NCBI GenBank assembly: GCA_038746285.1
Contig: JBCDKT010000036.1
Coordinates: 1 to 37,622 of the forward strand
From: Bacteroidota bacterium
GTDB lineage: Bacteria; Bacteroidota; Rhodothermia; Rhodothermales; JANQRZ01
DNA: 37,622 nt
Reading direction: 5' to 3'
Part shown: positions 16,350-31,878 of the stretch, one piece after another
How the letters are laid out: every line of letters starts with the position of its first letter
Position numbering within the stretch: position 1 is the stretch's first letter
Program-made: the position numbers and the translations under genes
The notes under the pieces: model-generated
The model's database searches: none
What the model was told of the DNA's origin: nothing
The model's input: only the letters and a program-made list of their open reading frames with translations

Positions 16350-16465
16350 GAGACCGGTCGATAATGAGAGGTGTCAAGGTATCCACGCAGACCGTAGCCT
16401 GTGGGGCTCTCAGGGTGTGTCCGCGCGGTGACGAGGCAGTTTTCCCACCTTCTGCAACCGATCCT

Positions 16466-18121
16466 ATGCGTCTCCTCTGTCTCTGCGCCTGCGTTCTGCT
16501 GGCAGGACCCGTCAGCGCCCAATCGTTCATTCTGGAGGCGTCCAGCGGCGGCGGCGGCCTGGAAGAGGACGTGGCTCGCGGGCTTGCACTCAGTCCAGAG
16601 GGCGACCGCTACATCACGGGCATCTTCGAGGACGTGGCCACGTTCGGCGAGGCGTCTGTCACGAGCATCGGCGGGAATGACTTCTTCCTGGTCAAATACG
16701 GTCCGGCTGGCGACGTGCTCTGGGCGCGGCGCGGCGGCACCAACGCGAACGACTTCGCAGCCGAAGTCGCCGTAGCGCCGGACGGCGGCGTCTACCTCGT
16801 GGGCTCCTTCAACGGCAGTGCCACGTTCGACGGAGGTGCCAACCCGGATGTGCTTCTAATCTCCGCCGGGGGCTTCGACATCTTCCTCGCCAAGTACGAC
16901 ATCGACGGCACCATACAGTGGGTCCAGCAAGGAGGCGGAGCGGGGCAAGACGTTGGCCGAGACTTGGCGGTAGACGACAGTGGGAATGCCTACGTAGCCG
17001 GCAGCTTCGAGGGCGACGGCAACTTCGGTGGCCGGATGGTAACCAGCGCGGGGGAGAGCGACGCGCTCCTTGTGAAATATGCCCCAGACGGCAGCGTCGC
17101 CTGGGCGAGGCGCAGCGGTGGCGGCCAGGACGACGCCGGCTACGGCGTCGCCGTGACGCCCGACGGCACCGCGCACGTCAGCGGCGTCTTCAGAAGCACC
17201 GCACAGTTTGGCCCGCTCTCCAGGCAAAGCCTCGGCGGCGCTGATGTGTTCGTCGCTCAGTACGATGCGAGCGGCGAGGTCGCCTGGGCCACGCGGATCG
17301 GCTCCCCCGAAGACGAGGTGACGCGCGGCGGCGGCATCGACCTCGCCGCGAACGGCACCGTCTACGTTCACGGCGGCTTCGACGGCACAATCACCATCGG
17401 CAGCGACGTACTGACGAGCCTCGGCATGGCCGACGTCTTCGTGGCGCGGATCAACCGCAGCGGCGATCCCGCCTGGGCACGCCGCGGCGGCGGGGACGGA
17501 GACGACGCCCCCAACGCCCTCAACGTCTTCGGCAACGGCGTTCTGATCACAGGTGCCGTGGAGGGATCAGGCTCCTTTTCTGAGGTGCCTTTCACCACGC
17601 AGGCTCAAGACGCCTACTTCGCGGTCTTCGACATTGCAGGCAACCTCTTCGACCTGAACATTCTCGGAGGTCCGGGCGACGACGTGGGCACGGCCATCGA
17701 CTCCGACGCGTCGCGTGCACAGTTTTCCGTGGCTGGCCTCTTCGAGGAAACCGCCGCCTTCGGCAGTCTCGAACTCACCAGTGCCGGCGAGACGGACGCC
17801 TACCTGGTCGACGGCCGCTTCGGCGTGGTGGACCTCGAACCGGACGCGGGCGCACCCACGAGGCACGCACTCGGTGCGGCCTATCCCAACCCCTTCAGGC
17901 ACTCAGCCACCCTCGCCCTCGACGTGGCCGCGGCACAGCATGTGCGCGTCGAGTTGTTCGACGTGCTTGGCCGACGGGTATCGATGGTCCATGCGGGCCG
18001 CCTGCCGGCCGGCCAGCACCGCGTCACTGTGCAGGCCGCCGGGCTCCCGACGGGCCTCTACCTGGTCCGGGCCGAAGGCGAGACGTTCCAGCTCACCCGG
18101 CGCGTGACGCTCGTGCGCTGA
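16466..18121 (+). CDS. Secreted SBBP-type beta-propeller with type IX sorting domain
   Basis: This 551-residue protein begins with a signal peptide (MRLLCLCACVLLAGPVSAQ). Its body is a run of about eight repeats of 45-55 residues. Each carries a variant of DVFVARINRSGDPAWARRGG followed by a GxxYVxGSFxGxxxFG strand, the pattern of SBBP beta-propeller proteins. The C-terminal 80 residues are a type A sorting domain (AYPNPFRHSATLALDV, LFDVLGRRVSMVH, GLYLVRAE) for type IX export. No catalytic site is evident; a surface or matrix role is likely. The frame is open further upstream, but the ATG at 16466 immediately precedes the signal peptide. The sorting domain is clearly homologous to that of the 12013 gene. 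Confidence 0.92.
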   Translation: MRLLCLCACVLLAGPVSAQSFILEASSGGGGLEEDVARGLALSPEGDRYITGIFEDVATFGEASVTSIGGNDFFLVKYGPAGDVLWARRGGTNANDFAAEVAVAPDGGVYLVGSFNGSATFDGGANPDVLLISAGGFDIFLAKYDIDGTIQWVQQGGGAGQDVGRDLAVDDSGNAYVAGSFEGDGNFGGRMVTSAGESDALLVKYAPDGSVAWARRSGGGQDDAGYGVAVTPDGTAHVSGVFRSTAQFGPLSRQSLGGADVFVAQYDASGEVAWATRIGSPEDEVTRGGGIDLAANGTVYVHGGFDGTITIGSDVLTSLGMADVFVARINRSGDPAWARRGGGDGDDAPNALNVFGNGVLITGAVEGSGSFSEVPFTTQAQDAYFAVFDIAGNLFDLNILGGPGDDVGTAIDSDASRAQFSVAGLFEETAAFGSLELTSAGETDAYLVDGRFGVVDLEPDAGAPTRHALGAAYPNPFRHSATLALDVAAAQHVRVELFDVLGRRVSMVHAGRLPAGQHRVTVQAAGLPTGLYLVRAEGETFQLTRRVTLVR

Positions 18122-18156: not shown

Positions 18157-19713
18157 TCATCCTGAGCGGTTCAGCAGCACCTGGAGCGCAGGGTAGTCCA
18201 CTTTCGCGTTGTGGCGGCGGTCGAGTGGGACTGCCGCGACGGGCAAGACAGCGGCGAGGTGCGCCCAGGCGAGGGCCTCGCGGAGGCGCTCGTCATCGAA
18301 CCCGTCCTGGGCCTCGACGACGAGCGTCCGGCGGCCCTCAGCGGCGACCAAGGCGCTGCGACGAACGCCGGCGACCTCGCGCGCGGCAGCTTCGACAGCG
18401 AGGGGGTAGAGCGTGCCGTGCGCGTCGCGGACTGCCGCCGCGCACCGGCCGAGGAGCCACAACCGTCCGTCCGTCTCCAGCGTCCCCGCGTCGCCCGTGC
18501 GGTGCCACCGCACGCCGCCGACCTCGAACTTAGACTCGGCGTCACCCGCTCCGCCGAGATAGCCGGGGAGCACATGCGCACCGCTCACGACAATCTCACC
18601 CGCCGTGCCGGGCGGGCATGTGAGGGCCTCGAACGTGGTCCCGCTGAGGGGGCCAATCGGCGTGCCCCAGCAGTCCTCGATCACCCGAAGGCGGACCGTG
18701 TCCACAGGCCGACCGGCCGGCAGACCACTGCCGGTGCGGACGCGTTCGCGGTCGGACGCTGTGAGCGAAGCAGCGGGCAGTTCGGCGATGGGTTCGGCCT
18801 CGGTCGAGCCGTAGACGGCGACGACCTCGGCGGCGGGGGCCGCAGCCTGGAGTCGGTCGAGGAGGTCGGGAAAGACGGGTGCGCCGCCGGTGTCGAGGCG
18901 GCGGAGGCGGGCAAGCGGGGCGAGGTCTTCCGCTCCGAGCAGGCGCTCGAAAAAGGCCGGAGAGGCCGCACTGCGCGTGACCTCTTCGGCCTCGATCTGC
19001 GCCAGTACGGGCGCAGGCGCGACAGCGCCCGGTCGGCGAAGGTCGGCCTCGGGAAGCACGCTCGTGAGGCCCGAGGCGAGGCCTGCGAGGACAAAGACGG
19101 GGAGCGTCGGCAGGTCCACCTGCCCGGCCTCGTGCCCTAGCGCCTCGGCGAGGGCGCGGTGCTGCGCGCGGAGGAACCCGTGCGTGCGGACCGCCGCCTT
19201 CGGCGCGCCCGTGCTCCCGGTCGTAAACGTCAGCAGCGCCGGGTCGTCGGGCGCACAGGGCGTTACCGGACACGCGCCTCCGCCCCTGCTCCAGCGCTTC
19301 GCGCCCGGCACCCAACCCCCGACAGCAAACCGGAGCGGGATACGCCGCACGCCCGGCACGAACAGCCGCAGCCCGTGCGCCTTCGGCACGCCGACGAACG
19401 CGGCGGGCGGTAGGACGCGGCAGCAGGCTGCGACGTGGGCGCGCCCCGCACCCGGGTCGAGGAGGACCGCGACGAGGCCAAGCCGCAAGACGGCCGCGAG
19501 GACGACGTACAGTTCCACCGAGAGGGGGACGAGCACGAGCACCGCGTCCCCCTTGGCCAGCCCGGCGTGGGCGAGCCGGCCCGCTCCTTCGGCCCCGAGC
19601 CGCTCCAGGTCGGCAAAGGTGACAGCCCGCCGCCGACGCCCGCGCCCCTCGACAAGCGCGACGGCGTCCGGCCGCGCCTCGGCCTGGGCCTGGAATAGGT
19701 CGGCAACGTTCAC
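18157..19713 (-). CDS. OleC-like adenylate-forming ligase
   Basis: This 518-residue ANL enzyme should activate a carboxylate as acyl-AMP. Motifs are the P-loop TTGSTGAPK (164-172), YGSTEAEPIAEL, the HRTGDAG/GRLWLLGR hinge region and the C-terminal catalytic Lys in RRHNAKVDYP (K504). AVLLDPGAG and FVGVPKAHGLRL in the N-terminal part resemble OleC, the beta-lactone synthetase of olefin synthesis, more than standard acyl-CoA ligases. Thus the product could be an acyl-AMP, a thioester or a lactone. It starts with GTG and overlaps the upstream GNAT gene by 4 bp (GTGA). It is the last gene of the six-gene operon. No OleA, OleB or OleD is present here. Confidence 0.85.
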   Translation of the reverse strand: MNVADLFQAQAEARPDAVALVEGRGRRRRAVTFADLERLGAEGAGRLAHAGLAKGDAVLVLVPLSVELYVVLAAVLRLGLVAVLLDPGAGRAHVAACCRVLPPAAFVGVPKAHGLRLFVPGVRRIPLRFAVGGWVPGAKRWSRGGGACPVTPCAPDDPALLTFTTGSTGAPKAAVRTHGFLRAQHRALAEALGHEAGQVDLPTLPVFVLAGLASGLTSVLPEADLRRPGAVAPAPVLAQIEAEEVTRSAASPAFFERLLGAEDLAPLARLRRLDTGGAPVFPDLLDRLQAAAPAAEVVAVYGSTEAEPIAELPAASLTASDRERVRTGSGLPAGRPVDTVRLRVIEDCWGTPIGPLSGTTFEALTCPPGTAGEIVVSGAHVLPGYLGGAGDAESKFEVGGVRWHRTGDAGTLETDGRLWLLGRCAAAVRDAHGTLYPLAVEAAAREVAGVRRSALVAAEGRRTLVVEAQDGFDDERLREALAWAHLAAVLPVAAVPLDRRHNAKVDYPALQVLLNRSG

Positions 19714-20711
19714 AGCGGGCGACCGAAGAGCGCGTAGCGGCGCATGGGGTAGGCCGAGTTGTGGCGGCTGATGCGCACCGAGACGTTGGCCTCGTGCATG
19801 AGGGCGTGGAGGCCGCGCCGGAAGCCGAGGCGGCGGGCGGCCTCCTGCACGCGGAGCACGAGCGCCCCGCCGAGGCCCTCGCCCCGCGCGTCGGGATGCA
19901 CTGCCACGGTCTTGACAATGACCGTGTCCACGGTCTCCCTCCGCTGCGCCTGCGCCAGATCGGGCACCGCAAAGACGAACCCGACCAGCGCGCTCTCGCG
20001 CTCGGCCAGGACGAGCAGCTCGGGGCGAACGTGTGGGAGCAGCTGGCGGTAGCTCGCGCGGAAGACCGCCTCGGGCTGCGGGGTGTAGAACGGGTTGCCG
20101 GCGAATGCTGCCAGGGCGACGCGGTAGAGCCGCCCTAGCTCTGCTTCGGCCTGCTCCAGCCGGAACGCGCGGAGCCGCAGACTAGTCTCGGCTAACCGCG
20201 CCTCGGCTTCGCCGAGCGCATCGGCCCTCGGCGGGAGGGCGGGCACGCGGGCCGAGTAGTAGCCGGCGACGGGCGCGAAGCCCGCCTGCCGGAACCAGGC
20301 GACGGCCTCAGGCGGTGTCCACGGCTCCAGAAAGAACGGAGGCTCCGGGCCTTCGCCCTCCGGCGCGGTCTCGGTAACGAGCCGGTAGGCCTGCCACGTC
20401 GAGCCGTCCATCGGGCCGAGCGCGTAGGCCGCGCCCGCCGTCCGCAGTTCATCGAGGGCGGCTGCCAGCACGGCCCCCGCCGCCTCGTCGCGCGCCGCTG
20501 CGACGTGCCCGACGAGTCCGACATGGGCGGCCGGGTCGTCCGGCAACGACGGCGTGTTCCGCCACCACAGGCTCGCGCGGGCAACGCACTCCCCCTCCTC
20601 AGTCACAGCGAGGTGCCGGTCCGGCCGCGTGAGCGCCCACATCTCGGGCGCGAGCGGCGCGAGGGGGCCCGCGAGACCGGCGTCGGGAGCGTCGAGGCGG
20701 TGAACCGTCAT
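19710..20711 (-). CDS. GNAT-family acyltransferase
   Basis: The C-terminal half of this 333-residue protein (from about residue 180) is a GNAT fold. It has the acetyl-CoA pyrophosphate loop VHPDARGEGLGGALVL and the following helix, then ALMHEANVSVRISRH. The N-terminal half (ALGPMDGSTWQAYRLV, PFFLEPWTP) looks like a second, degenerate GNAT-like unit, giving twice the length of a simple GNAT. The acceptor is unknown; an amine or hydroxyl on the operon's product is a reasonable guess. It overlaps the genes on both sides by 4 bp, so coupled translation with the kinase and the ligase is likely. Confidence 0.82.
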   Translation of the reverse strand: MTVHRLDAPDAGLAGPLAPLAPEMWALTRPDRHLAVTEEGECVARASLWWRNTPSLPDDPAAHVGLVGHVAAARDEAAGAVLAAALDELRTAGAAYALGPMDGSTWQAYRLVTETAPEGEGPEPPFFLEPWTPPEAVAWFRQAGFAPVAGYYSARVPALPPRADALGEAEARLAETSLRLRAFRLEQAEAELGRLYRVALAAFAGNPFYTPQPEAVFRASYRQLLPHVRPELLVLAERESALVGFVFAVPDLAQAQRRETVDTVIVKTVAVHPDARGEGLGGALVLRVQEAARRLGFRRGLHALMHEANVSVRISRHNSAYPMRRYALFGRPL

Positions 20712-22072
20712 CGGAGCAAGAGGGGTGCGAGGAGGCCAAGTGACGAGGCTGCGCCGACGAGGGCAGCGCGGTAGACCCGCCCCTCGAAGTCGGTCGTCTC
20801 CTCATCGAGCGCGCGGGCGTAGCGGGCCGCGATGTACGCGGTCCCCCCAACGGCGACGGTTCCCAGCAGGAGGAAGACGACCGCACGGGCGACCGGTGCC
20901 GGCGTTCCCCGCGTCAGGTAAAGGGCGAGCACGGGGAGCACCTGCACCGCCACGCTCCACACCGTCGCCGTCCGTGCGATGCGCGCGGGGGACCGTTCTG
21001 GATGCCGCCCCCGCAACTCGCCGACGCCGAAGAGCGCGAGATATCCGGCGTAAGCGAGGGTGTACGGAAAGAGGAGGTCCGGCCGGCTAGCAAGCGCCGC
21101 GGCAAGAAGCCACACGGTCCCTACCGACGTCACGCTGAAGACGTTGTGCACGGTGTCCGAGCGGGCGGTGCCGCGCGGCCAGAGCCGCGCGTAGGTGAAG
21201 TACAGCCCGAGCGGAGCCAGCAGCCAGACCGTCCCGCCGACGGCCCACGTCACGTAGCCCACGAGCGCGGCACCGACGACGGCGCTGCCGTCCAGCGTCG
21301 TCGTACGCCGCGAGAGCGCGGCACCAGCCGCGAGGGCGACGAGCACGAGGAGGTGTCCCACCAGCAGCGCCGCCGAGAGGTCAAGCAGTCGGGTGAGAAT
21401 GACATATGCCCCGAGCGGCACGAACAGGTTGTCCAGCCCGCGCCACGAGACGGCCTCCAGCATCATCGCTAGAATGCCGACGAGGCAGGCCACGAGGAGA
21501 CTCTCGGCGCGGCCGGTCTCGGTCAGCAGCAGGAGCGGGACGTGCACGCACAGGAAGGCTACGGCGAAGAACGCCACGGAGCCCTCGCGGCTCTTCCGAC
21601 CGTCCACCGCCGCGTACGACACGAACCCGTGGCGGAGGCCGACGAGCGCCGCCGCTGGATCAGCCAGCCCGAGCAGCAGGAGCGGGACCGCGTAGAGGAC
21701 CGGCGTCTCGGCAGCGAGAAGGTAGAGCGCGCACACCGCAATCGGGAAATAGATCTCGCCGTAAGACCGCCGCTCGACGCTGTGGATCACCCCGCCCACG
21801 CGTTTGCTAAGGGCCGACACCCGCCGCACGGCCACCATCAGCCCGACCGCCAGCGCAGCGAGGGCGACGACCGGTGCCGCCCCGTCGAAGAGCCACGGGA
21901 AGGGGATGGTCACGGCACCCATCGTGACGTGCAGCCCCTTGCGTGCTCCCTCCGGCGCGAGGCCGCGGTGCACCTGTGCCCATCGGAGCACGACCAGGGC
22001 AAGCCCGAGCGTGCCGAGAACGAATGCGATCCCCAGCCACGGCCGGGCCTGCACGAACGCCCACACGCTCAT
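20708..22072 (-). CDS. Fused phytol-kinase-like and DUF92-like membrane protein
   Basis: This 454-residue protein is almost all membrane helices. The N-terminal half carries the dolichol/phytol kinase pattern: ARKGLHVTMG (43-52), GLADPAAALVG (135-145) and DGRKSREGSVAFF (157-169). Such enzymes use CTP to phosphorylate a polyprenyl or phytyl alcohol. The second half (from about residue 255, LDGSAVVGAALVGYVTWAVG, TVHNVFSVTSVG) resembles DUF92/TMEM19 proteins, the family of plant VTE6, which converts phytyl phosphate to the diphosphate. A single protein may therefore carry out both steps. The DUF92 match is weaker than the N-terminal one. The gene overlaps both neighbours by 4 bp. Confidence 0.78.
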   Translation of the reverse strand: MSVWAFVQARPWLGIAFVLGTLGLALVVLRWAQVHRGLAPEGARKGLHVTMGAVTIPFPWLFDGAAPVVALAALAVGLMVAVRRVSALSKRVGGVIHSVERRSYGEIYFPIAVCALYLLAAETPVLYAVPLLLLGLADPAAALVGLRHGFVSYAAVDGRKSREGSVAFFAVAFLCVHVPLLLLTETGRAESLLVACLVGILAMMLEAVSWRGLDNLFVPLGAYVILTRLLDLSAALLVGHLLVLVALAAGAALSRRTTTLDGSAVVGAALVGYVTWAVGGTVWLLAPLGLYFTYARLWPRGTARSDTVHNVFSVTSVGTVWLLAAALASRPDLLFPYTLAYAGYLALFGVGELRGRHPERSPARIARTATVWSVAVQVLPVLALYLTRGTPAPVARAVVFLLLGTVAVGGTAYIAARYARALDEETTDFEGRVYRAALVGAASSLGLLAPLLLR

Positions 22073-23184
22073 CCGATCACCTCCTCGACGACGAACGCGC
22101 CGTAGAACGGGGCCTTGTCGGTGGCATGCAACCGCTGCCCGAGGTCGCCGAGCGGCCGGAGCCGGTGAGCGAGTGCGGGCGGGCGGCGTCGCGGGGCCAG
22201 CAGGTTCCAGTAGGCGAGGCGCGCGCCCGGCCGAGCGGTGTCGGCGAGGCGGCCGAGGAGGTCAGCGTAGTGTTCCTCGTCCACGTATTCGAACACGTCC
22301 GAGAGGTTGAACCGGTCGAACGACCCCGGTGCGGCAGCGTCGAGGGCCGCCTCCAGCGAAGCCCTGCGCCAGGTCAGCCGGTCGAGGCGGGCACGGATCG
22401 TCCCGAAGTGCTCGGGGCGGAGATAGAGCGGGAGCGCGGCCCCGTGCGTGCCGGTGAGGATCCACTGGAGGTACGGGTTCCGGCGCGGGTCCGTGCTCGT
22501 CACGGCCTGGCGGATGCGAGCCTGGAGCCGGCCGGCCACGCGGCCCTCGACGTGGTCGAAAAAGCGGGGATCACGCCCGAAGCGGCCGAGGACGAAGCGC
22601 GAGGTAAAGAGCCGGAAGAGCAGCCGCCAGCGAGGGGTGTCCCAGTGCGCGTCGTACCACGCCCGCCGCGCCTCGGCGGTCTCTTTTCCCTCTAGCAGTG
22701 CCTGAACCCGCCGGCGCGACTGCGTCAGCGGCAAGACGAAGCGACGGAAGTACTGGAAGTACCGCTCGAATTTTCCTGCCGCTCCGATCCCTCGCTCGAC
22801 GAGGCCGGGCCGGGCGTCCCAGAAGGCCCGCGCCTCGGCGTTGAGGTGGGGGCGGCAGCGGCGGTAGAGATCGAGCCGCCGGGCGCTCGGGCGCGAGCCG
22901 ACGAGCCCGAGGAGATCCTCGTGACGGAGCACGCGGAAGGCCGCGACCCGGAGGGCGAGGCACGCGAGCTGCGCCGCGCTGAGGTCCACGGCCAGGACCT
23001 CTGCAGGGTCGGCCGTGAGGAGCGCAAGGGCATTGTCGCCGGCCGAGGCAATGCTCAGGCACCGGTCGCCGGGCTGCACGGCGAGGCCTTCGAGGAGGAC
23101 GCCGGCGTCTTCCCACACCTGCGCGTAGCGAATGCGCGAGAAGTCAGCGCGCGCGGCGATCTCGGCAGCGGCCGGCTCAGCCAT
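22069..23184 (-). CDS. DUF3419 (BtaA-like) SAM-dependent transferase
   Basis: DUF3419 includes BtaA, which moves the 3-amino-3-carboxypropyl group of S-adenosylmethionine onto diacylglycerol to start betaine-lipid synthesis. The 371-residue protein has the family's opening IRYAQVWEDAGVLLEGL, a SAM-binding loop CLSIASAGDNALALL with AVDLSAAQLACLALR, and the later DRFNLSDVFEYVDEEHYADL. The length matches stand-alone BtaA. No BtaB methyltransferase is encoded in this window, so the product may be a homoserine ether and not a trimethylated betaine. It overlaps the phosphotransferase gene by 8 bp and the kinase gene by 4 bp. Confidence 0.88.
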   Translation of the reverse strand: MAEPAAAEIAARADFSRIRYAQVWEDAGVLLEGLAVQPGDRCLSIASAGDNALALLTADPAEVLAVDLSAAQLACLALRVAAFRVLRHEDLLGLVGSRPSARRLDLYRRCRPHLNAEARAFWDARPGLVERGIGAAGKFERYFQYFRRFVLPLTQSRRRVQALLEGKETAEARRAWYDAHWDTPRWRLLFRLFTSRFVLGRFGRDPRFFDHVEGRVAGRLQARIRQAVTSTDPRRNPYLQWILTGTHGAALPLYLRPEHFGTIRARLDRLTWRRASLEAALDAAAPGSFDRFNLSDVFEYVDEEHYADLLGRLADTARPGARLAYWNLLAPRRRPPALAHRLRPLGDLGQRLHATDKAPFYGAFVVEEVIG

Positions 23185-25858
23185 GCGCCACCCCGACCGG
23201 ACCGGGCGCGTAGTTCGCCGCTAGCCGCTCGACGCGGCCCGTCGCCCCGTCGAGCCGGACACGGTCCCCGTCGCGGAGCCAGCCGGTCACCCCCGCCACG
23301 GCTACGGCTGCCGGGAGGCCCAGTTCGCGCGCGACAATCGCCGAGTGCGAGAGCAGGCTCCCGCGTTCGACGACGAGGCCGGCGCATGCCGGGAAGAGCA
23401 GGATCCAGCCGGGGTCCGTCCGCTCGGCGACGAGGACAGTGCCGGGAGCGAGGGTCACGCCGCGCGGGTCGCGGACCACACGCACCGGTCCCTCGACCGT
23501 GCCGGGGCAGCAGCCAAGCCCCTGCCGCACCGCCCCCCCTTGATCCGGCTGCGCTGTACCAACCGGCGTAAGCGCGCTCAGTGCCACGGCTCCCCGCGTC
23601 GTGAACCGCTCGGGCGGCGCAGGCAGGGCGCGGAACCGGCCGAACGCGGCGCGGCGTGCGCGGGCCAGCGCCGCGGGGTCCGGCACCGTGGCGGTCCCGT
23701 CAGCGAGGCCGAGGAGTTCGTGGAGTTCGAGGTAGAACACGTCGCGGGGGGCACCGAGCCGGCCGGCCTCGGCGAGCCGGCGGCCCATTGCTAGCACGAT
23801 GCGGCGGGCGCGGCCGAAGACGCGGGTCCGCTCGAAGCGGAGGTTCTCGCGGTCGCGGACACGGGCCCGGGCGTGCCGGAGCGCCCAACCGAAGACGAGC
23901 CGCCGGAGCGGGTGCCCGCCAAGCGCCGTGCGGAGCCGCGTCTCGGCCTCGGCGCGCAGCCCGGCCCCTGCCGTTTCGGGGACTGCTTGCCCCGCCCGAA
24001 GACGCTGCGCCATCACGCCGATAGCGCGGTAGAGCGGCCCGGGATCGTCGGCGAGCGTGGGGCTTTCGAGCTTGAGTTCTTCGAGGCAGCGGTCACCGAA
24101 GCGGTCGAGGTAGGCGGCGACCTCGGCGGCCCAGTCCGGCCGCGCCGCGAGGCCGGTCTCAATCTCCCCCACCGGTCCGTCGGCGAGCGTAGCGGTCCAC
24201 CCGGCGTCCTCGGCGGCCCGCTCGGCGAGGCGGCGGACCCAGCGCGCAGGCTCCGCGGAAACCACCGCCCCGTCACCGGTGAGGAGTTGCCCGAACAGGC
24301 CCTCGGGCAACCACCGCTCGGCCAGCCGCTGCGCCACGCCGAAGTGGATCATGGCGAAAAAGTCGTTGACCAGCGGAGCGTCCCAGCGCGCGAGGAGGGC
24401 AGTGTCGAGGCGGCGGTAGTGGGCGGCGAGGCCTTCCAGATCGAGCGCGTCGAGGCCGGACCCGGGAAGCGCAAGCGCGGCGTCGAGGCGAGCGCGGAAG
24501 GCGCGCTCCAGCCGGGGCAGCCGTCGGCGCGCAGCGACCAAGCCGATGACCGTGCGGAGCGTGTCCAAGGCGTCGCCCCATCGGCTGCCCGATGGGGGAT
24601 CGGGCCGGAGTGTTTCGGGCAGCCCCTCTTTCACGCCCATCATTCGCTCCATGAGCGGCGCGTTAAGCCGGTAGCCTGGCAGAAGCGCCAGCACCCGGTA
24701 CCAGTTGACGAGGTTGTAGTAGACCCGCCCCCGCACCAGCCCGATCATCTGCGTGAAGGCCTCGTCGTGCGCCGCGATGCGCGGCTCGGAGACGCCGAGG
24801 AGGCGGCAGAAGTGGCGGTAGACGGCCTCGTAGGCCCGGCGTGCGAACGTGTAGGTCAGCGGCGTCGTCACGCCTCCGTAGCTCTCGACGATGTTGCTGT
24901 TGTCCCAGAGTCGGAGCGTACCCTCATCGGCTGTGCCCTCGGTGACCATGCTCCCGGTAAGCGCCGTGATGGGCCGACTCTGGAGGAGGTAGAGCCCTCC
25001 GCCAGCGAATGCCCACTCGACGTCCTGCGGGCACCCGGTGTGGGCCTCGGCCGCGCGCGCGAGGTCGGCGACGCGCGCGGCCTGGGCGTCGGTGAGAACG
25101 GGACCGGAGGGCGCAGGCAGCGCCCGAACGCCCTTGCCTGCCTCGGCGTCGAAGCGGTCGGCCTGGCGCTGCCGGCCCGGCCCCCGCTCTGCCACCCGGC
25201 CGCCTGCGGCGACGCGGAGGTGCTCCCCGTCCTCCCGCCCGTCCACGAGTGCCGCGCCCAGCCCATGGACCGCAGCTATGACGACGTGCGTGCGGTCGCC
25301 CGAGACAGGATCGGCGCTGAAGGCGACGCCGGACGTCTCGGCCTCGATCATCACCTGCACGAGTACGGCGGGGGGTGGCGGCACCGGGGGCAGCCCGCGC
25401 TCGCGGCGGTAGGTGAGCAGGCTCGGCGCGAAGCCCGAGCGCCACACGTCCGCTACGCGCTCCGCCACGCGCTCCGGCGGAACGAAGAGGTACGAGGCGA
25501 GCTGTCCCGCAAACGAGTGCACCTCCCCGTCCTCGTCGGCAGCCGACGAGCGCACAGCGACGTGGGCTGCACCGAGCCCGGCGAGACCTACGGCGAGCGC
25601 CTCACGCACGGCAGGTGCAGGCACGAGTCCAGCCAGCGCACCGGCGAGCGTCTCGGGGTTTTCGCGCGCGGCCTCGAACGCCGCGCGCGCGTCGTCATCC
25701 AGGCTCGCCTCGAACGCCGCCGGAGTCGCTACAAACCACCGAGGGACACGGCCGACGCCGCAGAGCGCCGCGAGAGCGGCGGCCTTGCCCCCGAGAACCC
25801 GGCGAGGGGGTGCGGCTCCAACGTCGTCCGGCGTGAGGATTAGGGGGCAGTCGGGCAT
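23177..25858 (-). CDS. PEP-synthase-like phosphotransferase lacking the PEP barrel
   Basis: Residues 1-310 form the ATP-grasp domain of the PEP synthase/PPDK family: LGGKAAALAAL, VAVRSSAADEDG, SFAGQLASY, SGVAFSADPVSGD and DVEWAFAGGGLYLLQSRPIT. The C-terminal domain is the swivelling phosphohistidine domain, with H838 in GSLLSHSAIVARELGLP. No PEP-binding TIM barrel follows it. Between them lie about 450 residues of mainly helical sequence. This order (ATP-grasp, middle domain, His domain) is that of rifampin phosphotransferase, which uses ATP to phosphorylate a small molecule. Here a lipid or prenyl acceptor is likelier given the neighbours, but this is inference. The protein is 893 residues and the second gene of the operon. 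Confidence 0.88.
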   Translation of the reverse strand: MPDCPLILTPDDVGAAPPRRVLGGKAAALAALCGVGRVPRWFVATPAAFEASLDDDARAAFEAARENPETLAGALAGLVPAPAVREALAVGLAGLGAAHVAVRSSAADEDGEVHSFAGQLASYLFVPPERVAERVADVWRSGFAPSLLTYRRERGLPPVPPPPAVLVQVMIEAETSGVAFSADPVSGDRTHVVIAAVHGLGAALVDGREDGEHLRVAAGGRVAERGPGRQRQADRFDAEAGKGVRALPAPSGPVLTDAQAARVADLARAAEAHTGCPQDVEWAFAGGGLYLLQSRPITALTGSMVTEGTADEGTLRLWDNSNIVESYGGVTTPLTYTFARRAYEAVYRHFCRLLGVSEPRIAAHDEAFTQMIGLVRGRVYYNLVNWYRVLALLPGYRLNAPLMERMMGVKEGLPETLRPDPPSGSRWGDALDTLRTVIGLVAARRRLPRLERAFRARLDAALALPGSGLDALDLEGLAAHYRRLDTALLARWDAPLVNDFFAMIHFGVAQRLAERWLPEGLFGQLLTGDGAVVSAEPARWVRRLAERAAEDAGWTATLADGPVGEIETGLAARPDWAAEVAAYLDRFGDRCLEELKLESPTLADDPGPLYRAIGVMAQRLRAGQAVPETAGAGLRAEAETRLRTALGGHPLRRLVFGWALRHARARVRDRENLRFERTRVFGRARRIVLAMGRRLAEAGRLGAPRDVFYLELHELLGLADGTATVPDPAALARARRAAFGRFRALPAPPERFTTRGAVALSALTPVGTAQPDQGGAVRQGLGCCPGTVEGPVRVVRDPRGVTLAPGTVLVAERTDPGWILLFPACAGLVVERGSLLSHSAIVARELGLPAAVAVAGVTGWLRDGDRVRLDGATGRVERLAANYAPGPVGVAHG

Positions 25859-25875
25859 GAGGAAAGCTACGGCTC

Positions 25876-25913
25876 TCAGCGGAGTAGGAGCACGTCAGCG
25901 GAGCAGGAGCGCG
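25876..25913. repeat. 19-bp tandem duplication at the ubiA-like 3' end
   Basis: Two adjacent 19-bp units beginning TCAGCGGAG match at 17 of 19 positions. One contains the last codons and stop of the UbiA-family gene; the other is an untranslated copy in the 36-bp gap before the next gene. Confidence 0.75.
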
Positions 25914-26806
25914 AGCGGGCCTACCACCACGTAGAGCGCAAGCGTCCACAGCGCCGCCGCGCCTTCAATCCATCGCCCGGCCCCTGCAACCGGCCGCCGG
26001 AGGAACTGCACCGCCGCCCCGACGCAGAGGAGCAGGACCGGAGCGAGCGCGCCCGCCACCAGCCCTACGGTCCCTGCCGCCGCCCCGAAGCCCACAGCGG
26101 CTCCGCAGGCCAGCCCCACGGCCCCGAGCCAGACAGAGACGGCGCGGCCGCGCCCCCATGCTGCGCTGTAGGTCTCGACCCCCAGCTCCTCGTCGTCCGG
26201 TGCCCGCACCTTGCGGCCGACCTCGATCACGGTGCCAGTGAACCAGCTCGCTGCGAGGAGCCGGCCCAGGCCGCCCGGCCATGCTGCCCACCCGTCGCAG
26301 GCCGCGGCGAAGAGCGCGATCAGCGGGACGACGAGGCCGTGCGAAACGAGCACAGCCCACGGTCGCTCCTCTAGCCAAGTGCGCGCGAAGAACTCCACGC
26401 TCATGAGCGCGCCGAACCCCCACACAAGGCCCAGGTACGGTAGCAGCCGAAGGTCGAAGAGCACGACCAGAGCGAGTTGTACCACCGCCACGCCCAACCC
26501 GGCAGCAGCAAGCGCGCGTAGCGTCACGAGGCCACGCGGGACGGGTCGGAGGGGGCGGTACTGCCGGTCCGCCTCAGCGTCCTTGAACTCGTCGGCCACG
26601 CGGAGTTGGAAGAAGAACCCGAGCACGACGAGCGCAGCTACGGCGAAGGCCGCCGCCGGAGGCCACCCCGGCACGTCACGGAGCAGGTGAGCAGCGCACA
26701 GCGCCCCGCCTGCGAACACCGCGACGAGCACGCCCTGGCTCTGGAGCGGGAAGCGCTCTTGGAGGTATGTCCCCCAGCGGACGAGTGCAGATCTCGGTTC
26801 GGACAT
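25895..26806 (-). CDS. UbiA-family prenyltransferase
   Basis: UbiA enzymes transfer a prenyl chain from its diphosphate to an aromatic or lipid acceptor in the membrane. The 303-residue protein has seven to nine helices, the first Asp-rich motif ADEFKDAEADRQYRPLRPVP (D72, D76, D80) and a second acidic motif GRKVRAPDDEELGVETYSA. Both bind the magnesium-diphosphate. I chose the ATG at 26806 (MSEPRSALVRWG); the frame runs much further upstream, but that part has no UbiA character and overlaps a small gene. It is the first gene of the six-gene operon, 36 bp ahead of the phosphotransferase gene. Chain and acceptor are unknown. Confidence 0.9.
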   Translation of the reverse strand: MSEPRSALVRWGTYLQERFPLQSQGVLVAVFAGGALCAAHLLRDVPGWPPAAAFAVAALVVLGFFFQLRVADEFKDAEADRQYRPLRPVPRGLVTLRALAAAGLGVAVVQLALVVLFDLRLLPYLGLVWGFGALMSVEFFARTWLEERPWAVLVSHGLVVPLIALFAAACDGWAAWPGGLGRLLAASWFTGTVIEVGRKVRAPDDEELGVETYSAAWGRGRAVSVWLGAVGLACGAAVGFGAAAGTVGLVAGALAPVLLLCVGAAVQFLRRPVAGAGRWIEGAAALWTLALYVVVGPLALLLR

Positions 26807-27154: not shown

Positions 27155-27204
27155 GCGGGTAGCGAGGAACGCGACCGGCGGGGCGGCCGTGCAAGGCAGC
27201 CCAC

Positions 27205-27218
27205 CGGAAGCGGTTCCG
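27205..27218. promoter_or_regulatory. Palindrome upstream of hppD
   Basis: CGGAA-4-TTCCG is a short perfect inverted repeat 36 bp before the hppD ATG, inside the divergent region. It may be an operator, but the arms are only 5 bp. Confidence 0.25.
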
Positions 27219-27254
27219 CCGGTCTCGATTTCTGACACTCTTCCCCTCTCTCCC

Positions 27255-28481
27255 ATGTCCGAGCCCACCAAGACCTTTCACGCCGGCGACGGCGCTTCGG
27301 CCGCCGTCTCCACCGAACCTGGCGCGCAGCAGGCCGGCGCGGCGACCGCCGAGGCGGCCAGCCTCCGCGGGGCCCCCGACCACGTCGCCGACGACTTCCT
27401 CCCGATCAACGGGACGGACTACGTCGAGTTCTACGTCGGCAACGCGAAGCAGGCGGCCTACTTTTACGCCGCCGCCTTCGGCTTCGAGATCATCGGCTAC
27501 CGCGGACCGGAGACGGGCCACCGCGAGGCCGCGAGCTACCTGCTGAAGCAGGACAAGATCCGGTTCGTCTTTACGACCGCGCTCTCCTCCAGCCACCCCA
27601 TCGCCGAGCACGTCCACCGGCACGGCGACGGGGTCCGCGACATCGCCCTCTGGGTCGGCGACGCCCGGGCCGCCTTCGAGGAGGTCACCAAGCGCGGGGC
27701 CGTTCCGGTGCGCGAGCCCGAGGTCCTGGAAGACGAGCACGGCGAGATCGTCGTCGCGGCGATGGGGACCTACGGCGACACCATCCACACGTTCGTCGAG
27801 CGCACGAACTACAGCGGCCTCTTCATGCCGGGCTTCGAGGCGTGGACGAACGCCGACTGGAGCACGACGCCGGTCGGGCTAAAGTACGTCGACCACTGCG
27901 TCGGCAACGTCCACCTCGGCGACATGAACCGGTACGTCAAGTACTACGAGGACACGATGGGCTTCCGCAACATCCTCGTCTTCACCGACTCCGACATCCA
28001 GACCGAGTATTCGAGCCTGATGTCGAAGGTAATGAGTAACGGCAACGAGCGGATCAAATTCCCGATCAACGAGCCCGCCGAGGGCAAGCGCAAGAGCCAG
28101 ATCGACGAGTACCTCGAGTTCTACGACGGGGCCGGCGTGCAGCACGTCGCCCTCGCCACCGACGACATCCTCAGCACGGTCTCGAAGCTCCGCAGCCGCG
28201 GCGTCCAGTTCCTCACGGTCCCGACGACCTACTACGACGTGCTCCAGGACCGCGTCGGCAAAATCGACGAGCCGGTCGACGAACTCGCCAAGCTCGGCAT
28301 CCTCGTCGACCGCGACCTGGACGGCTACCTGCTGCAGATCTTTACCAAGCCCGTCGAGGACCGCCCGACGGTGTTCTACGAAATCATCCAGCGCAAGGGC
28401 GCGCGCACCTTCGGCGAGGGCAACTTCAAGGCCCTCTTCGAAGCCATCGAGCGCGAGCAAGAACGGCGCGGCAACCTCTGA
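27255..28481 (+). CDS. hppD: 4-hydroxyphenylpyruvate dioxygenase
   Basis: HPPD converts 4-hydroxyphenylpyruvate to homogentisate using iron(II) and oxygen. The 408-residue protein has two vicinal-oxygen-chelate domains. The C-terminal one carries the iron ligands H214 (YVDHCVGNV), H297 (VQHVALATDDI) and E376 (VFYEIIQRKG). The N-terminal about 45 residues are low-complexity and variable. The ATG at 27255 gives MSEPTKTFHAGD; an upstream in-frame codon exists but adds unconvincing sequence. It is followed by hmgA after a 93-bp gap filled with a repeat. Its product is both the first intermediate of homogentisate catabolism and the prenyl acceptor of tocopherol-type pathways. Confidence 0.97.
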   Translation: MSEPTKTFHAGDGASAAVSTEPGAQQAGAATAEAASLRGAPDHVADDFLPINGTDYVEFYVGNAKQAAYFYAAAFGFEIIGYRGPETGHREAASYLLKQDKIRFVFTTALSSSHPIAEHVHRHGDGVRDIALWVGDARAAFEEVTKRGAVPVREPEVLEDEHGEIVVAAMGTYGDTIHTFVERTNYSGLFMPGFEAWTNADWSTTPVGLKYVDHCVGNVHLGDMNRYVKYYEDTMGFRNILVFTDSDIQTEYSSLMSKVMSNGNERIKFPINEPAEGKRKSQIDEYLEFYDGAGVQHVALATDDILSTVSKLRSRGVQFLTVPTTYYDVLQDRVGKIDEPVDELAKLGILVDRDLDGYLLQIFTKPVEDRPTVFYEIIQRKGARTFGEGNFKALFEAIEREQERRGNL

Positions 28482-28566
28482 GTCTCTGGTTTCTAGTTCC
28501 CGGTTTCTAGCTTCTCGCTGGCGACCGGGGCCTCAACCAGAAACGAGAGACCAAAAACCAGAAACC
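28482..28566. repeat. Imperfect inverted repeat between hppD and hmgA
   Basis: The left arm (28482-28510) is built from TGGTTTCTAG-like units and the right arm (28537-28566) from ACCAGAAAC-like units. The arms pair imperfectly over about 29 bases around a 26-base loop. The composition (TTTCT/AGAAA) differs strongly from the GC-rich surroundings. It fills nearly the whole gap and could form a hairpin in a joint transcript. Confidence 0.75.
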
Positions 28567-28574
28567 CTACAGCT

Positions 28575-29843
28575 ATGCCTTACTACGTCCGCATGGGGAA
28601 CGTCCCGCACAAGCGGCACACCCAGTTTCCGCGCACCGACGGCGCGCTCCACACCGAAGAGGTGATCGGGGCCGAAGGCTTCTCCGGCATCCAGTCGCTC
28701 GCCTACCATCTCCACCCGCCGACGCTCGTCGAGCGCGTGCTCGAGCCCGAGCCGTACGCGGTCGAGTTCGTCGAGAAGGACTTCCTGCGCCACCGGCACT
28801 TCCTCGGCAAGGAGGTCGAGCCGGGCGGCACCTGGCTGACAGGGCGGCGCTACATCATGGGCAATCCCGACGTCAACCTCGCCCTCTGCGCCCCGACCGA
28901 GCCGATGGGCGAGGCCGAGTTCTTCAAGAACGCGACCCACGACGAGCTCGTCTACGTCCACGACGGCGAGGGCCGCCTGGAGACCGTCCTCGGGACCGTC
29001 GAGTTCACGAAGGGCGACTACGTCCACGTCCCGCGCACGATCACCCACCGCTGGGTGTTTACAGGCGACGTGCAGCCGCGCCTGCTCGTGATCGAGGCCC
29101 CGACCGAGTTCCGCCCGCCGAAGCGCTACCGCAACAGCGTCGGCCAGCTCCTGGAGCACTCGCCCTACTGCGAGCGCGACTTCCGCCCGCCGAGCGAGTT
29201 GAACACGGTCGACGAGGAGGGCGAGTTCGTCGTCCGCATCAAGAAGCACGGCAAGCTCCACCCGTTCGTCTACCGCTACCACCCGTTCGACGTGGTCGGC
29301 TGGGACGGCTACATGTACCCCAACGCGATCTCGATCCACGACTTCGAGCCGATCACGGGCCGCGTCCACCAGCCGCCGCCGGTGCACCAGATGTATGAGG
29401 CGCACAACTTCGTCGTCTGCTCGTTCGTCCCGCGGCTCTTCGACTACCACCCGGACTCGATCCCGGCCCCGTACAACCACTCGAACATCGACTCCGACGA
29501 GGTGCTCTACTACGCCGAGGGCGACTTCATGTCGCGCAAGGGCATCGACCGGGGCAGCTTCACGCTCCATCCGGGTGGCATCCCGCACGGCCCGCACCCC
29601 GGCACGACGGAGGCCAGCATCGGCGTCAAGGAGACGCACGAGCTCGCGGTGATGGTCGACACGTTCCGGCCGCTCCACCTCACAAAAGCTGCCCTCCAGA
29701 TCGAGGACGAGGACTACCAGCTTTCGTGGCAGCCCGAGAAGCACGGCCACCCACTCCCCGACGCCGCTCCGGTCCCGCCGGGCGCGAACGTCGGCGGTGA
29801 TGGAGCCGTCACGGACGCTTCGCCCGCCGACGCGGCGCGGTAG
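28575..29843 (+). CDS. hmgA: Homogentisate 1,2-dioxygenase
   Basis: HmgA opens the ring of homogentisate to maleylacetoacetate with iron(II) and oxygen. The 422-residue protein has the double cupin layout. The first part contains MGNVPHKRHTQF; the iron site is built from NHSNIDSDEVLYYAEGDF (His and Glu near residue 303-310) and FTLHPGGIPHGPHPG. The length is within the family range, with a short low-complexity C-terminal tail. The ATG at 28575 gives the expected MPYYVRMGNV start. Together with hppD it forms the first two steps of tyrosine breakdown; maleylacetoacetate isomerase and fumarylacetoacetase genes are not in the window. Confidence 0.96.
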   Translation: MPYYVRMGNVPHKRHTQFPRTDGALHTEEVIGAEGFSGIQSLAYHLHPPTLVERVLEPEPYAVEFVEKDFLRHRHFLGKEVEPGGTWLTGRRYIMGNPDVNLALCAPTEPMGEAEFFKNATHDELVYVHDGEGRLETVLGTVEFTKGDYVHVPRTITHRWVFTGDVQPRLLVIEAPTEFRPPKRYRNSVGQLLEHSPYCERDFRPPSELNTVDEEGEFVVRIKKHGKLHPFVYRYHPFDVVGWDGYMYPNAISIHDFEPITGRVHQPPPVHQMYEAHNFVVCSFVPRLFDYHPDSIPAPYNHSNIDSDEVLYYAEGDFMSRKGIDRGSFTLHPGGIPHGPHPGTTEASIGVKETHELAVMVDTFRPLHLTKAALQIEDEDYQLSWQPEKHGHPLPDAAPVPPGANVGGDGAVTDASPADAAR

Positions 29844-29867
29844 CCTCTCGCCTCGCACCCGTAGTTT

Positions 29868-29893
29868 CAGGGGCGGCCTCGCGGTCGCCCCTG
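29868..29893 (+). terminator. Hairpin after hmgA
   Basis: CAGGGGCG and CGCCCCTG form a perfect 8-bp stem with a 10-base loop, followed by TCTCGTTTC. It lies 24 bp after the hmgA stop and 24 bp before the next ATG, so it may partly separate the two transcripts. Confidence 0.45.
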
Positions 29894-29916
29894 TCTCGTT
29901 TCAGCCCCCTTCATTC

Positions 29917-31878
29917 ATGCCCGACACCTACCCCTTCGGCCAGGCCATCGCCTGGCAACCCGACCTGGCGCAGCGCACCAATCTCCACCGCTTCATGGAG
30001 CGCGTCGGTGTGGCCGACTACGAGGCTCTCCTCGCGTGGGCAACGGATGACGTAGGCCGGTTTTGGGATACCGTGCTGGACGACCTCGGGGTCGAGTTCT
30101 ACGAGCCGTACGGGCAGATCCTCGACACGTCGGACGGCATCGAGTTCGCACGATGGTGCGCCGGCGGGCGGATGAACATCGTCCACAACCTGCTCGACAA
30201 ATGGCAGGGCACGGAGGTCGCCGAGCGCGACGCGGTGCGGTGCGAGAGCGAGGCGGGCGCCGTGCGGACGCTGACCTACCGCGAACTGCACCGCGAGGTC
30301 GGTCGCTGTGCCTCGGCGCTCCGCACGCTCGGAATCGGGAAGGGCGATGCGGTCGGGCTGTACATGCCGATGACGCCGGAACTCATCGTCGCCTTCCTCG
30401 CGGTTGCCAAGATCGGCGGCGTGATCCTGCCGCTGTTCTCGGGCTACGGCGCGACGGCCGTCGCCACCCGTCTCGCCGACGGCAAGGCGAAAGCGCTCTT
30501 CGTCTCGAACGGCATGATGCGGCGCGGGCGGCAGGTCCCGATGAAGCCGACCGCCGACGAAGCCCTCGCCGACGCGCCGAGCGTGCAGCACGTTTTCGTC
30601 TACGAGCACGTCGCCGGCCTCGACGTACCCATCATGCGCGGGCGCGACCGGACGTGGGACGAACTGATGGCCCTCGCGAGCGACGACTCCGAATCGGTTG
30701 AGACCGAGCGGACGGACGCCGAGGACGTGGTGATGCTGATCTACACGAGCGGGACGACGGGCCGGCCGAAAGGCGCAGTCCACACCCACTGCGGCTTCCC
30801 GGTCAAGGCGGCGCAGGACATGGCGCACCCGATGGACCTCCGCCCGGGCGAGGTCATGTGGTGGATGAGCGACATGGGCTGGATGATGGGGCCGTGGCTC
30901 GTCTTCGGCACGCTCCTGAACGGCGCGACGATGGTGCTCTTCGACGGCGCGCCGGACTACCCCAAGCCGGACCGGACGTGGGCGCTCTGTGCCCGGCACG
31001 GCGTGACCCACCTGGGGCTGAGTCCCACGCTCGTCCGCTCCCTCATGCCGCACGGCACAGCACCCGTCGAGCGGCACGACCTCGCCGCGCTCCGCGCCGT
31101 CTGCTCGACCGGCAGCCCGTGGGATCCCGAAAGCTGGACGTGGCTCTTCGAGACCGTGCTCGGCGGGGCGAAGCCGATCCTCAACTACTCGGGCGGGACC
31201 GAGATCTCGGGCGGGATCGTCTGCGGGTCGTTCCTGACGCCGCTCAAGCCCGGCGCCTTCTCCGGCCCGGTCGTCGGGATGGATGCCGACGTGGTGAACG
31301 ACGAGGGCGAGCCGGTCCGCGGTGCCGTCGGCGAACTCGTCATCCGGCAGCCGTGGATCGGGATGACGCGCGGCTTCTGGGGCGACCGCGAGCGCTACCT
31401 CGACAGCTACTGGCGGCGGCACCCCGGCCTGTGGACCCACGGCGACTTCGCCGCCGTCGACAGCGATGGCCTGTGGTACATCCTCGGGCGAAGCGACGAC
31501 ACGATCAAGGTCGCCGGCAAGCGCCTCGGCCCGGCCGAGGTCGAGGCCGTCCTCAACGCGCACCCGGCGGTGCTGGAGAGCGCGGCCATCGGGGTCCCGC
31601 ACGATATCAAAGGCCAGGAGGTCGTCGCCTTCTGCGTCCTCGCTGGCGGGTACGACCCGAGCGAAGACCTGCGGGCGGAGTTGGTCGGGCGGCTCGTGGA
31701 CGCGCTCGGCAAGCCGCTCAAGCCGCGCGAGGTGAAGTTCGCTACCGCGCTCCCGAAGACGCGCAACGCCAAGGTCATGCGCCGCCTCATCCGCGCCGCC
31801 TACCTCGGCCTCGACCTCGGTGACACGTCGAGCCTCGAAGTGCCGGAGACGGTGGATGCGGTGCGGAACGCAGCATAG
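29917..31878 (+). CDS. Acetyl/acetoacetyl-CoA synthetase-like ligase
   Basis: This 653-residue ANL enzyme should form an acyl-CoA via acyl-AMP. It has an N-terminal ACAS-like region (about 1-95, PYGQILDTSDGIEFARWCAG), the P-loop YTSGTTGRPKGAVHTH (about 273-288), NYSGGTEISGGI, the hinge LGRSDDTIKVAGKRLGP and the catalytic Lys in PKTRNAKVMRR. The length and N-terminal region fit the acetate/acetoacetate group. Placed after hppD and hmgA, acetoacetate, an end product of tyrosine breakdown, is a sensible substrate, but acetate or propionate cannot be excluded. The ATG at 29917 (MPDTYPFGQAIAW) is preferred over the longer open frame. Confidence 0.85.
   Translation: MPDTYPFGQAIAWQPDLAQRTNLHRFMERVGVADYEALLAWATDDVGRFWDTVLDDLGVEFYEPYGQILDTSDGIEFARWCAGGRMNIVHNLLDKWQGTEVAERDAVRCESEAGAVRTLTYRELHREVGRCASALRTLGIGKGDAVGLYMPMTPELIVAFLAVAKIGGVILPLFSGYGATAVATRLADGKAKALFVSNGMMRRGRQVPMKPTADEALADAPSVQHVFVYEHVAGLDVPIMRGRDRTWDELMALASDDSESVETERTDAEDVVMLIYTSGTTGRPKGAVHTHCGFPVKAAQDMAHPMDLRPGEVMWWMSDMGWMMGPWLVFGTLLNGATMVLFDGAPDYPKPDRTWALCARHGVTHLGLSPTLVRSLMPHGTAPVERHDLAALRAVCSTGSPWDPESWTWLFETVLGGAKPILNYSGGTEISGGIVCGSFLTPLKPGAFSGPVVGMDADVVNDEGEPVRGAVGELVIRQPWIGMTRGFWGDRERYLDSYWRRHPGLWTHGDFAAVDSDGLWYILGRSDDTIKVAGKRLGPAEVEAVLNAHPAVLESAAIGVPHDIKGQEVVAFCVLAGGYDPSEDLRAELVGRLVDALGKPLKPREVKFATALPKTRNAKVMRRLIRAAYLGLDLGDTSSLEVPETVDAVRNAA

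Follow-up and report, generated by a model that had tools for sequence, protein, structure and literature searches.

A six-gene operon and its spread across phyla

The window analyzed here comprises the 37,622 nucleotides of contig JBCDKT010000036.1 (assembly GCA_038746285.1, a Rhodothermales member of the Bacteroidota), and its subject is an operon of six open reading frames, all on the minus strand, at positions 18157-26806. From its first gene onwards the operon encodes a UbiA-superfamily membrane transferase (25895..26806; UbiA Pfam/NCBIfam E-value 2e-8), a phosphoenolpyruvate (PEP)-synthase-like dikinase with ATP-grasp and phosphohistidine domains (23177..25858; PPDK_N 6e-47, PEP-utilizers 1e-21), a BtaA-like DUF3419 protein that depends on S-adenosylmethionine (SAM) and is presumed to transfer its 3-amino-3-carboxypropyl group (22069..23184; PF11899, E 2e-72), a polytopic phytol/dolichol-kinase-like membrane protein (20708..22072; recognized by motifs and profile comparison, with no Pfam match), a tandem-GNAT N-acyltransferase with the fold of mycothiol synthase MshD (19710..20711; GNAT E 3e-11) and an adenosine monophosphate (AMP)-forming carboxylate ligase of PRK09274/OleC-like type (18157..19713; AMP-binding E 5e-48). 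The genes are joined by overlaps of 8, 4, 4 and 4 bases and one 36-base gap, a layout recorded in a preliminary description made from the sequence alone and agreeing with the coordinates to the base.

That description took the six genes for one pathway and proposed a search for the six families as neighbors in other genomes. One scan of bacterial genomes with the window DUF3419 protein yielded 75 loci, a sample biased towards DUF3419 peptide patterns close to the window's own, in which gene content was scored by tblastn with the six window proteins and by a gene-level count. The six families proved to be neighbors well beyond the window, with the full set in 60 of the 75 loci and most of the incomplete loci cut by contig ends. 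The operon recurred as a unit in at least ten phyla (Verrucomicrobiota, Pseudomonadota of the alpha and gamma classes, Cyanobacteriota, Acidobacteriota, Deinococcota, Planctomycetota, Elusimicrobiota, Campylobacterota, Bacillota and Rhodothermota), and since all 60 complete loci kept the genes on one strand, coincidental neighborhood was ruled out. The gene order was HMGR-UbiA-dikinase-DUF3419-kinase-GNAT-ligase in 27 loci, HMGR being an HMG-CoA-reductase-like gene described below, and the circularly permuted DUF3419-kinase-GNAT-ligase-UbiA-dikinase in 25 Clostridial loci; six further six-gene loci had no HMGR and there were two single rearrangements. Overlaps between adjoining genes were common across loci, and the pairwise gene-distance correlations among operon genes (0.76-0.92, species history not controlled for) were as expected of co-inheritance.

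The operon was also present in other families of the window's phylum-level group (L116, L117 and L119), and its cultured, non-pathogenic carriers include Rhodovulum robiginosum DSM 12329 and Calidithermus chliarophilus DSM 9957. Within the window's own order its distribution was patchy, with strong DUF3419 matches in about a dozen of 114 genomes and none in the congener of the window organism that was searched. The operon is most likely a dedicated, horizontally mobile pathway. In line with the preliminary description, no described cluster or pathway with this gene set was found in the open-access literature, subscription journals and preprints lying outside the search; no open-access paper brought DUF3419, UbiA and GNAT together, and other combinations of the families gave nothing relevant. 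A plasmid-borne copy in Roseinatronobacter is annotated with family names only.

UbiA, dikinase and phytol-kinase-like proteins

In the operon UbiA, motif I is kept as D72-E-x-K-D76-xxx-D80, with D72, E73, D76 and D80 invariant in 33 of 33 sequences, and motif II (DxxxD) is replaced by E195-xx-R198-K199-x6-E206-xx-V210-x-x-Y213, again in 33 of 33, including the variant loci L107, L108 and L118. The UbiA profile found chlorophyll synthase and digeranylgeranylglyceryl phosphate (DGGGP) synthase, the UbiA of archaeal ether-lipid synthesis, the latter as the best solved-structure match (E 3e-8). In the alignment with DGGGP synthase, however, the acidic motif-II positions correspond to K199 and a non-acidic residue, and no archaeal lipid genes were seen nearby. 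Judged by these motifs, the operon protein is a distinct UbiA subfamily. The transfer of a prenyl group suggested earlier fits the family and motif I, whereas donor and acceptor are uncertain because motif II is lost.

The dikinase residues K25, R103, E281, Q293 and R295 were conserved in 57 of 57 sequences and H838 in 56, the remaining sequence having a gap there. Its ATP-grasp, substrate and phosphohistidine domains follow the order seen in rifampin phosphotransferase Rph, which is shared by the dikinase-like ligases PigC/RedH, and catalytic residues are kept; it differs in forming its own subfamily, beside UbiA and/or DUF3419. At L128:9118-12672 a single frame of 1184 aa covers both dikinase and DUF3419, through either a natural fusion or a joining of frames, which supports a functional coupling of the two proteins.

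Phytol and dolichol kinases (VTE5/SEC59) carry the motifs RKxxH, RxSxGE, KSxEGS and DNxxxP in a polytopic cytidine triphosphate (CTP)-kinase domain. The N-terminal, CTP-kinase-like domain of the operon protein (residues 1-230) is intact, with E41, R44, K45, H48, R101, G105, D138, K160, E163, G164, E206, D214, N215 and P219 invariant, but CTP_transf_1 matched only 2 of 34 members. The best fold match of its AlphaFold model (pLDDT 91.9) was cytidine diphosphate-diacylglycerol (CDP-DAG) synthase (Z 8.1, residues 50-231); a PDB sequence search with the kinase profile gave no match, and Foldseek with the model returned nothing below E 0.001. Operon-type kinases were missing from genomes G033, G285 and G292, which have remote homologues only.

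The preliminary description read this protein as a fusion of phytol-kinase-like and DUF92-like parts. The kinase motifs are consistent with this, as is homology to an intact phytol-kinase-like::DUF92 fusion elsewhere in the window genome (L130:2488-4077, G000:C24; 529 aa, DUF92 E 1e-52), with which the operon kinase aligns over 333 columns, the C-terminal half included. The DUF92-like half is degenerate, however: the RDAGQVxANGG stretch of the paralogue is not conserved in 39 operon members, two loci, L021 and L107, do not have the half at all, and in L038 a single open frame runs from the kinase domain directly into GNAT. Because of this degeneracy and absence, a VTE5- plus VTE6-type route to a diphosphate within one protein is not supported, and the dikinase is a better candidate than the DUF92 half for the second phosphorylation. 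Compared with VTE5/VTE6-VTE2 phytol recycling to tocopherol, the operon thus has a homologous kinase alongside a UbiA-type transferase but a phosphohistidine dikinase in place of an intact DUF92 half, a changed UbiA motif II and no aromatic acceptor genes. Homologues of the intact paralogue are present in relatives of the window genome, and its role is likely ordinary prenol recycling.

DUF3419 protein, acyltransferase and ligase

In an alignment that included the BtaA of L114, residues E25, D26 and D67 of DUF3419 were invariant along with other positions, and in the phylogeny the operon proteins formed a separate clade with a branch of 2.87 to the BtaA group. BtaA converts diacylglycerol and SAM to diacylglyceryl-homoserine (PMC10685587), and a lipid bearing a SAM-derived aminocarboxypropyl group is the best family-based guess for the DUF3419 product. 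Relative to BtaA/BtaB synthesis of the betaine lipid DGTS, the operon shares DUF3419 homology and the presumed transfer of the 3-amino-3-carboxypropyl group to a lipid hydroxyl, but it has no BtaB and five or six extra enzymes, and its head would apparently be acylated and carboxyl-activated rather than trimethylated. The L114 BtaA is adjoined by a class I SAM methyltransferase, a BtaB candidate; no methyltransferase gene recurred at the core operon loci.

The GNAT model (pLDDT 94.8) is a tandem GNAT whose nearest folds are MAB_4324 (Z 22.2) and MshD (Z 19.8), and a PDB sequence search with the GNAT profile gave no match. The ligase keeps its core motifs and the A10 lysine K504. Its best NCBIfam model is PRK09274, followed by OleC beta-lactone synthetases, so that the OleC-like label given earlier holds as a relationship; its score of 216.6 bits lies far below the curated OleC cut-off of 900, and, in contrast to the OleABCD olefin/beta-lactone pathway, no OleA, OleB or OleD recurs beside the operon. 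Several Clostridia have a further AMP-binding ligase after the operon, one of which (L041:18322-19956) carries a phosphopantetheine (acyl carrier protein) domain and is a possible acyl supplier for GNAT.

The earlier proposal of a prenylated lipid or meroterpenoid with a homoserine-like head, detectable as a mass shift of +101, can accordingly be kept as regards the aminocarboxypropyl lipid. A simple +101 head is unlikely to be final: ligase and GNAT together imply N-acylation and carboxylate activation, which would make +101 the mass of an intermediate and not of the end product.

A seventh gene resembling HMG-CoA reductase

Of the 75 loci, 33, all Gram-negative, have an HMGR-like gene beside the operon, as a rule immediately before UbiA; HMGR is lacking from Clostridial, Calidithermus and Elusimicrobial carriers. 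The six-gene make-up given earlier is therefore correct for the window but one member short, the seventh having been missed because it is absent there.

The HMGR-like protein is full-length and, in human numbering, keeps the catalytic residues E559, K691, D767 and H866 as well as R590, D690, K692 and N755 (one sequence is gapped at some of these positions). Lysine 735 of HMG-CoA reductase pairs with the HMG carboxylate. In 38 of 38 sequences the position of human S684 is glutamate, and position 735 is never lysine; S684 and K735 are part of the substrate/inhibitor pocket (PMC3875450). Since two HMG-contact residues are lost and the catalytic residues kept, the cluster enzyme probably reduces a thioester other than HMG-CoA. 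Isoprenoid genes were searched for in 37 genomes (36 carriers and the window genome): 1-deoxy-D-xylulose 5-phosphate (DXP) reductoisomerase matched in 33 and HMG-CoA synthase in one, weakly, which places HMGR outside any recognizable mevalonate pathway.

Elsewhere in the window genome, on a separate contig, there is an HMGR (L112:7582-9129, G000:C45; 515 aa, N-terminal domain PF25653, E684/I735), and HMG-CoA synthase was not found in that genome. This long type occurs in many genomes of the order, including Rhodothermales without the operon, and a reading of it as the displaced seventh gene is for that reason not supported. In L011 a gene for a MoaA-like radical SAM protein precedes UbiA; it was considered as a substitute for HMGR and set aside as a single case, the other two such genes lying elsewhere. 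Isoprenoid auxotrophy of the Clostridial carriers, considered because of missing DXP reductoisomerase matches, was ruled out by IspH in 15 of the 17 Bacillota carriers tested; the Clostridia G142, G151 and G156 have IspH with no DXP reductoisomerase match and may use a DXR-like alternative. For HMGR clusters of Coxiella and Legionella, no paper or record was found.

Variant operons and neighboring genes

Variant loci keep DUF3419 and GNAT, and mostly also UbiA and the PEP-synthase-like protein. What varies is the type of lipid kinase, which may be phytol-kinase-like, YegS-like or EcKL-like, and the enzyme set for the carboxylate: an AMP ligase, alone or together with a reductase, a second phosphatidylserine decarboxylase (PSD), or a pyridoxal phosphate (PLP)-dependent decarboxylase. 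L118 contains a YegS lipid kinase, UbiA, dikinase, tandem GNAT, a second PSD and DUF3419. L107 combines a thioester-reductase-like NAD_binding_4 protein, dikinase, DUF3419, a kinase with no DUF92 half, UbiA, a GNAT assigned by similarity, a second PSD and a weakly matching MMPL-like gene (E 0.001). In both L118 and L107 the cluster PSD is an extra copy, another PSD being encoded elsewhere in each genome. L108 has a divergent dikinase, ligase, DUF3419, an MMPL/Patched-like exporter, UbiA and, beside the exporter, an HMGR fused to an EcKL/APH-type kinase (L108:11110-13533), which suggests that the reductase product, an alcohol, is phosphorylated. L109 carries two MMPL-like genes, assigned by similarity to the L108 protein, between dikinase and DUF3419. 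In L120 (6497-10935) a PEMT/ICMT::DUF3419 fusion adjoins a GNAT and a PLP decarboxylase, with a YegS lipid kinase upstream; these genes probably represent another aminolipid pathway.

This pattern of replacements points to phosphorylation of a lipid alcohol and to an amino acid head that becomes acylated and has its carboxylate either taken off or converted. The presence of MMPL exporters and of lipid kinases speaks for a lipid product. The pairing of DUF3419 with PSD, PLP decarboxylase, a PEMT/ICMT fusion and MMPL lends independent support to the aminocarboxypropyl lipid proposed from family membership.

In the window, UbiA is preceded by a divergently oriented HPPD gene and the ligase gene is followed on the opposite strand by a secreted SBBP/Por-tail protein (16364-18121), so the operon is a self-contained unit. 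HPPD is the enzyme that forms homogentisate. With a homogentisate-dioxygenase-like cupin and an acetyl-CoA-synthetase-like gene it makes up a group at 27189-31878 that looks like ordinary tyrosine catabolism. A tocopherol or quinone pathway, prompted by the adjoining HPPD, was rejected, as HPPD is not a recurring neighbor of the operon.

Proposed pathway and alternatives

What the analysis shows is which genes belong together, how they are ordered and oriented, how far they and their motifs are conserved and which of them are replaced in variants; the substrates, step order and product that follow are inferred. The phytol-kinase-like protein would phosphorylate a lipid alcohol, probably a prenol, with CTP, and the dikinase would use its phosphohistidine to attach another phosphate. 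From the activated lipid the UbiA-type transferase would make a lipid ether, and DUF3419, acting like BtaA, would transfer the 3-amino-3-carboxypropyl group from SAM to the hydroxyl of a lipid. The tandem GNAT may N-acylate the amine of the transferred head and the ligase activate its carboxylate. In most Gram-negative versions the HMGR-like enzyme would reduce the resulting thioester as far as the primary alcohol, and a ceramide-like N-acyl amino alcohol would be formed; in other versions the head would be decarboxylated instead. We put at about even chances that the operon builds an unusual amino-acid-derived membrane lipid with a SAM-derived head, N-acylated and with a processed carboxylate, and an isoprenoid chain.

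Several points weigh against this interpretation. The second aspartate motif is gone from UbiA, so that use of a prenyl diphosphate is not assured. The operon DUF3419 proteins are far from characterized BtaA, so that they could use a different acceptor or even transfer a different group. The match of the kinase to the CdsA (CDP-DAG synthase) fold is modest for a helical membrane protein, and the evidence from MMPL, PSD and decarboxylase genes comes from a few variant loci. The window operon itself has no HMGR gene, and the two HMGR changes recur in the long type of the window genome, a type that operon-free Rhodothermales also carry, and may thus not be pathway-specific. The order of the steps is a guess.

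Among the alternatives, prenol salvage leading to a meroterpenoid is improbable. Here kinase and dikinase would make a prenyl diphosphate from phytol, farnesol or geranylgeraniol by VTE5/VTE6 logic, UbiA would prenylate an aromatic acceptor and DUF3419 would decorate the phenol in the manner of isonocardicin synthase, yielding a small prenylated metabolite or quinone and not a bulk membrane lipid. The homology of the kinase to VTE5-like::DUF92 fusions, the recovery of DGGGP and chlorophyll synthases by the UbiA profile and the divergent HPPD of the window are consistent with such a route, as are two genes of L118, one for an FMN-dependent dehydrogenase resembling type-2 isopentenyl diphosphate isomerase and a polyprenyl-synthase-like one downstream. 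However, no aromatic-pathway gene recurs beside the operon, MMPL and PSD in the variants point to a membrane lipid, and an aromatic acceptor pathway common to small-genome Clostridia and aerobic Gram-negatives would be unlikely.

We consider it similarly unlikely that the product is an aminolipid on ordinary diacylglycerol with no isoprenoid, in which the basic motif II of UbiA would bind a lipid phosphate and another diphosphate-activated group would be moved. The E-xx-R-K-x6-E motif in all sequences including the variants, the alignment of the DGGGP-synthase motif-II aspartates with K199 and a non-acidic residue, and the occurrence of YegS/DAGK-type lipid kinases, whose usual substrates are glycerolipids, argue for it. 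Set against this, the motif I that holds the Mg-diphosphate of prenyl donors is intact, prenyl diphosphates are the substrates of most known UbiA enzymes and the main operon kinase type is prenol-kinase-like.

Quite doubtful, too, is a soluble scaffold for DUF3419, such as a peptide-like cofactor or natural product made in mycothiol-like fashion by ligase and MshD-like GNAT, with UbiA serving solely as its anchor. The GNAT fold is indeed nearest to tandem GNATs such as MshD, and small-molecule pathways employ AMP ligases as well as the relatives of the dikinase, Rph and PigC/RedH, but the core contains two polytopic membrane enzymes, the variants carry MMPL exporters, PSD and lipid kinases, and characterized DUF3419 relatives use diacylglycerol. 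That the Gram-negative operon HMGR is an ordinary HMG-CoA reductase feeding mevalonate to isoprenoids for the UbiA step is very improbable, since, despite its full length and four catalytic residues, two HMG contacts are lost in every sequence, HMG-CoA synthase had no match in 36 of the 37 genomes (and a weak one in the other) with enzymes of the 2-C-methyl-D-erythritol 4-phosphate pathway present, and Clostridial, Calidithermus and Elusimicrobial carriers do without any HMGR.

Returning to the amino-acid-derived membrane lipid, a bolder version, which we offer tentatively and hold to be rather less likely than that general outline, is that the product is a new class of bacterial membrane lipid. 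This would be a sphingolipid-like N-acyl amino alcohol (homoserinol) ether with a SAM-derived nitrogen part and probably also a chain of isoprenoid type. Gene transfer would have carried its pathway into at least ten phyla, gut Clostridia among them, and the atypical HMGR would act as the thioester reductase. The likeness to sphingolipid and ceramide synthesis would lie solely in this N-acyl amino alcohol product, the amino alcohol coming from the methionine moiety of SAM and not through serine palmitoyltransferase logic. More generally, if gut Clostridia, Verrucomicrobiota, Cyanobacteriota and Pseudomonadota have in common an intact lipid pathway of several steps whose product is not known, a constituent of the membrane would have escaped notice in a large part of the bacteria. 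The proposal also offers testable functions for DUF3419 proteins outside betaine lipids, for an unusual UbiA subfamily and for orphan HMG-CoA reductases in bacteria that have no mevalonate pathway.

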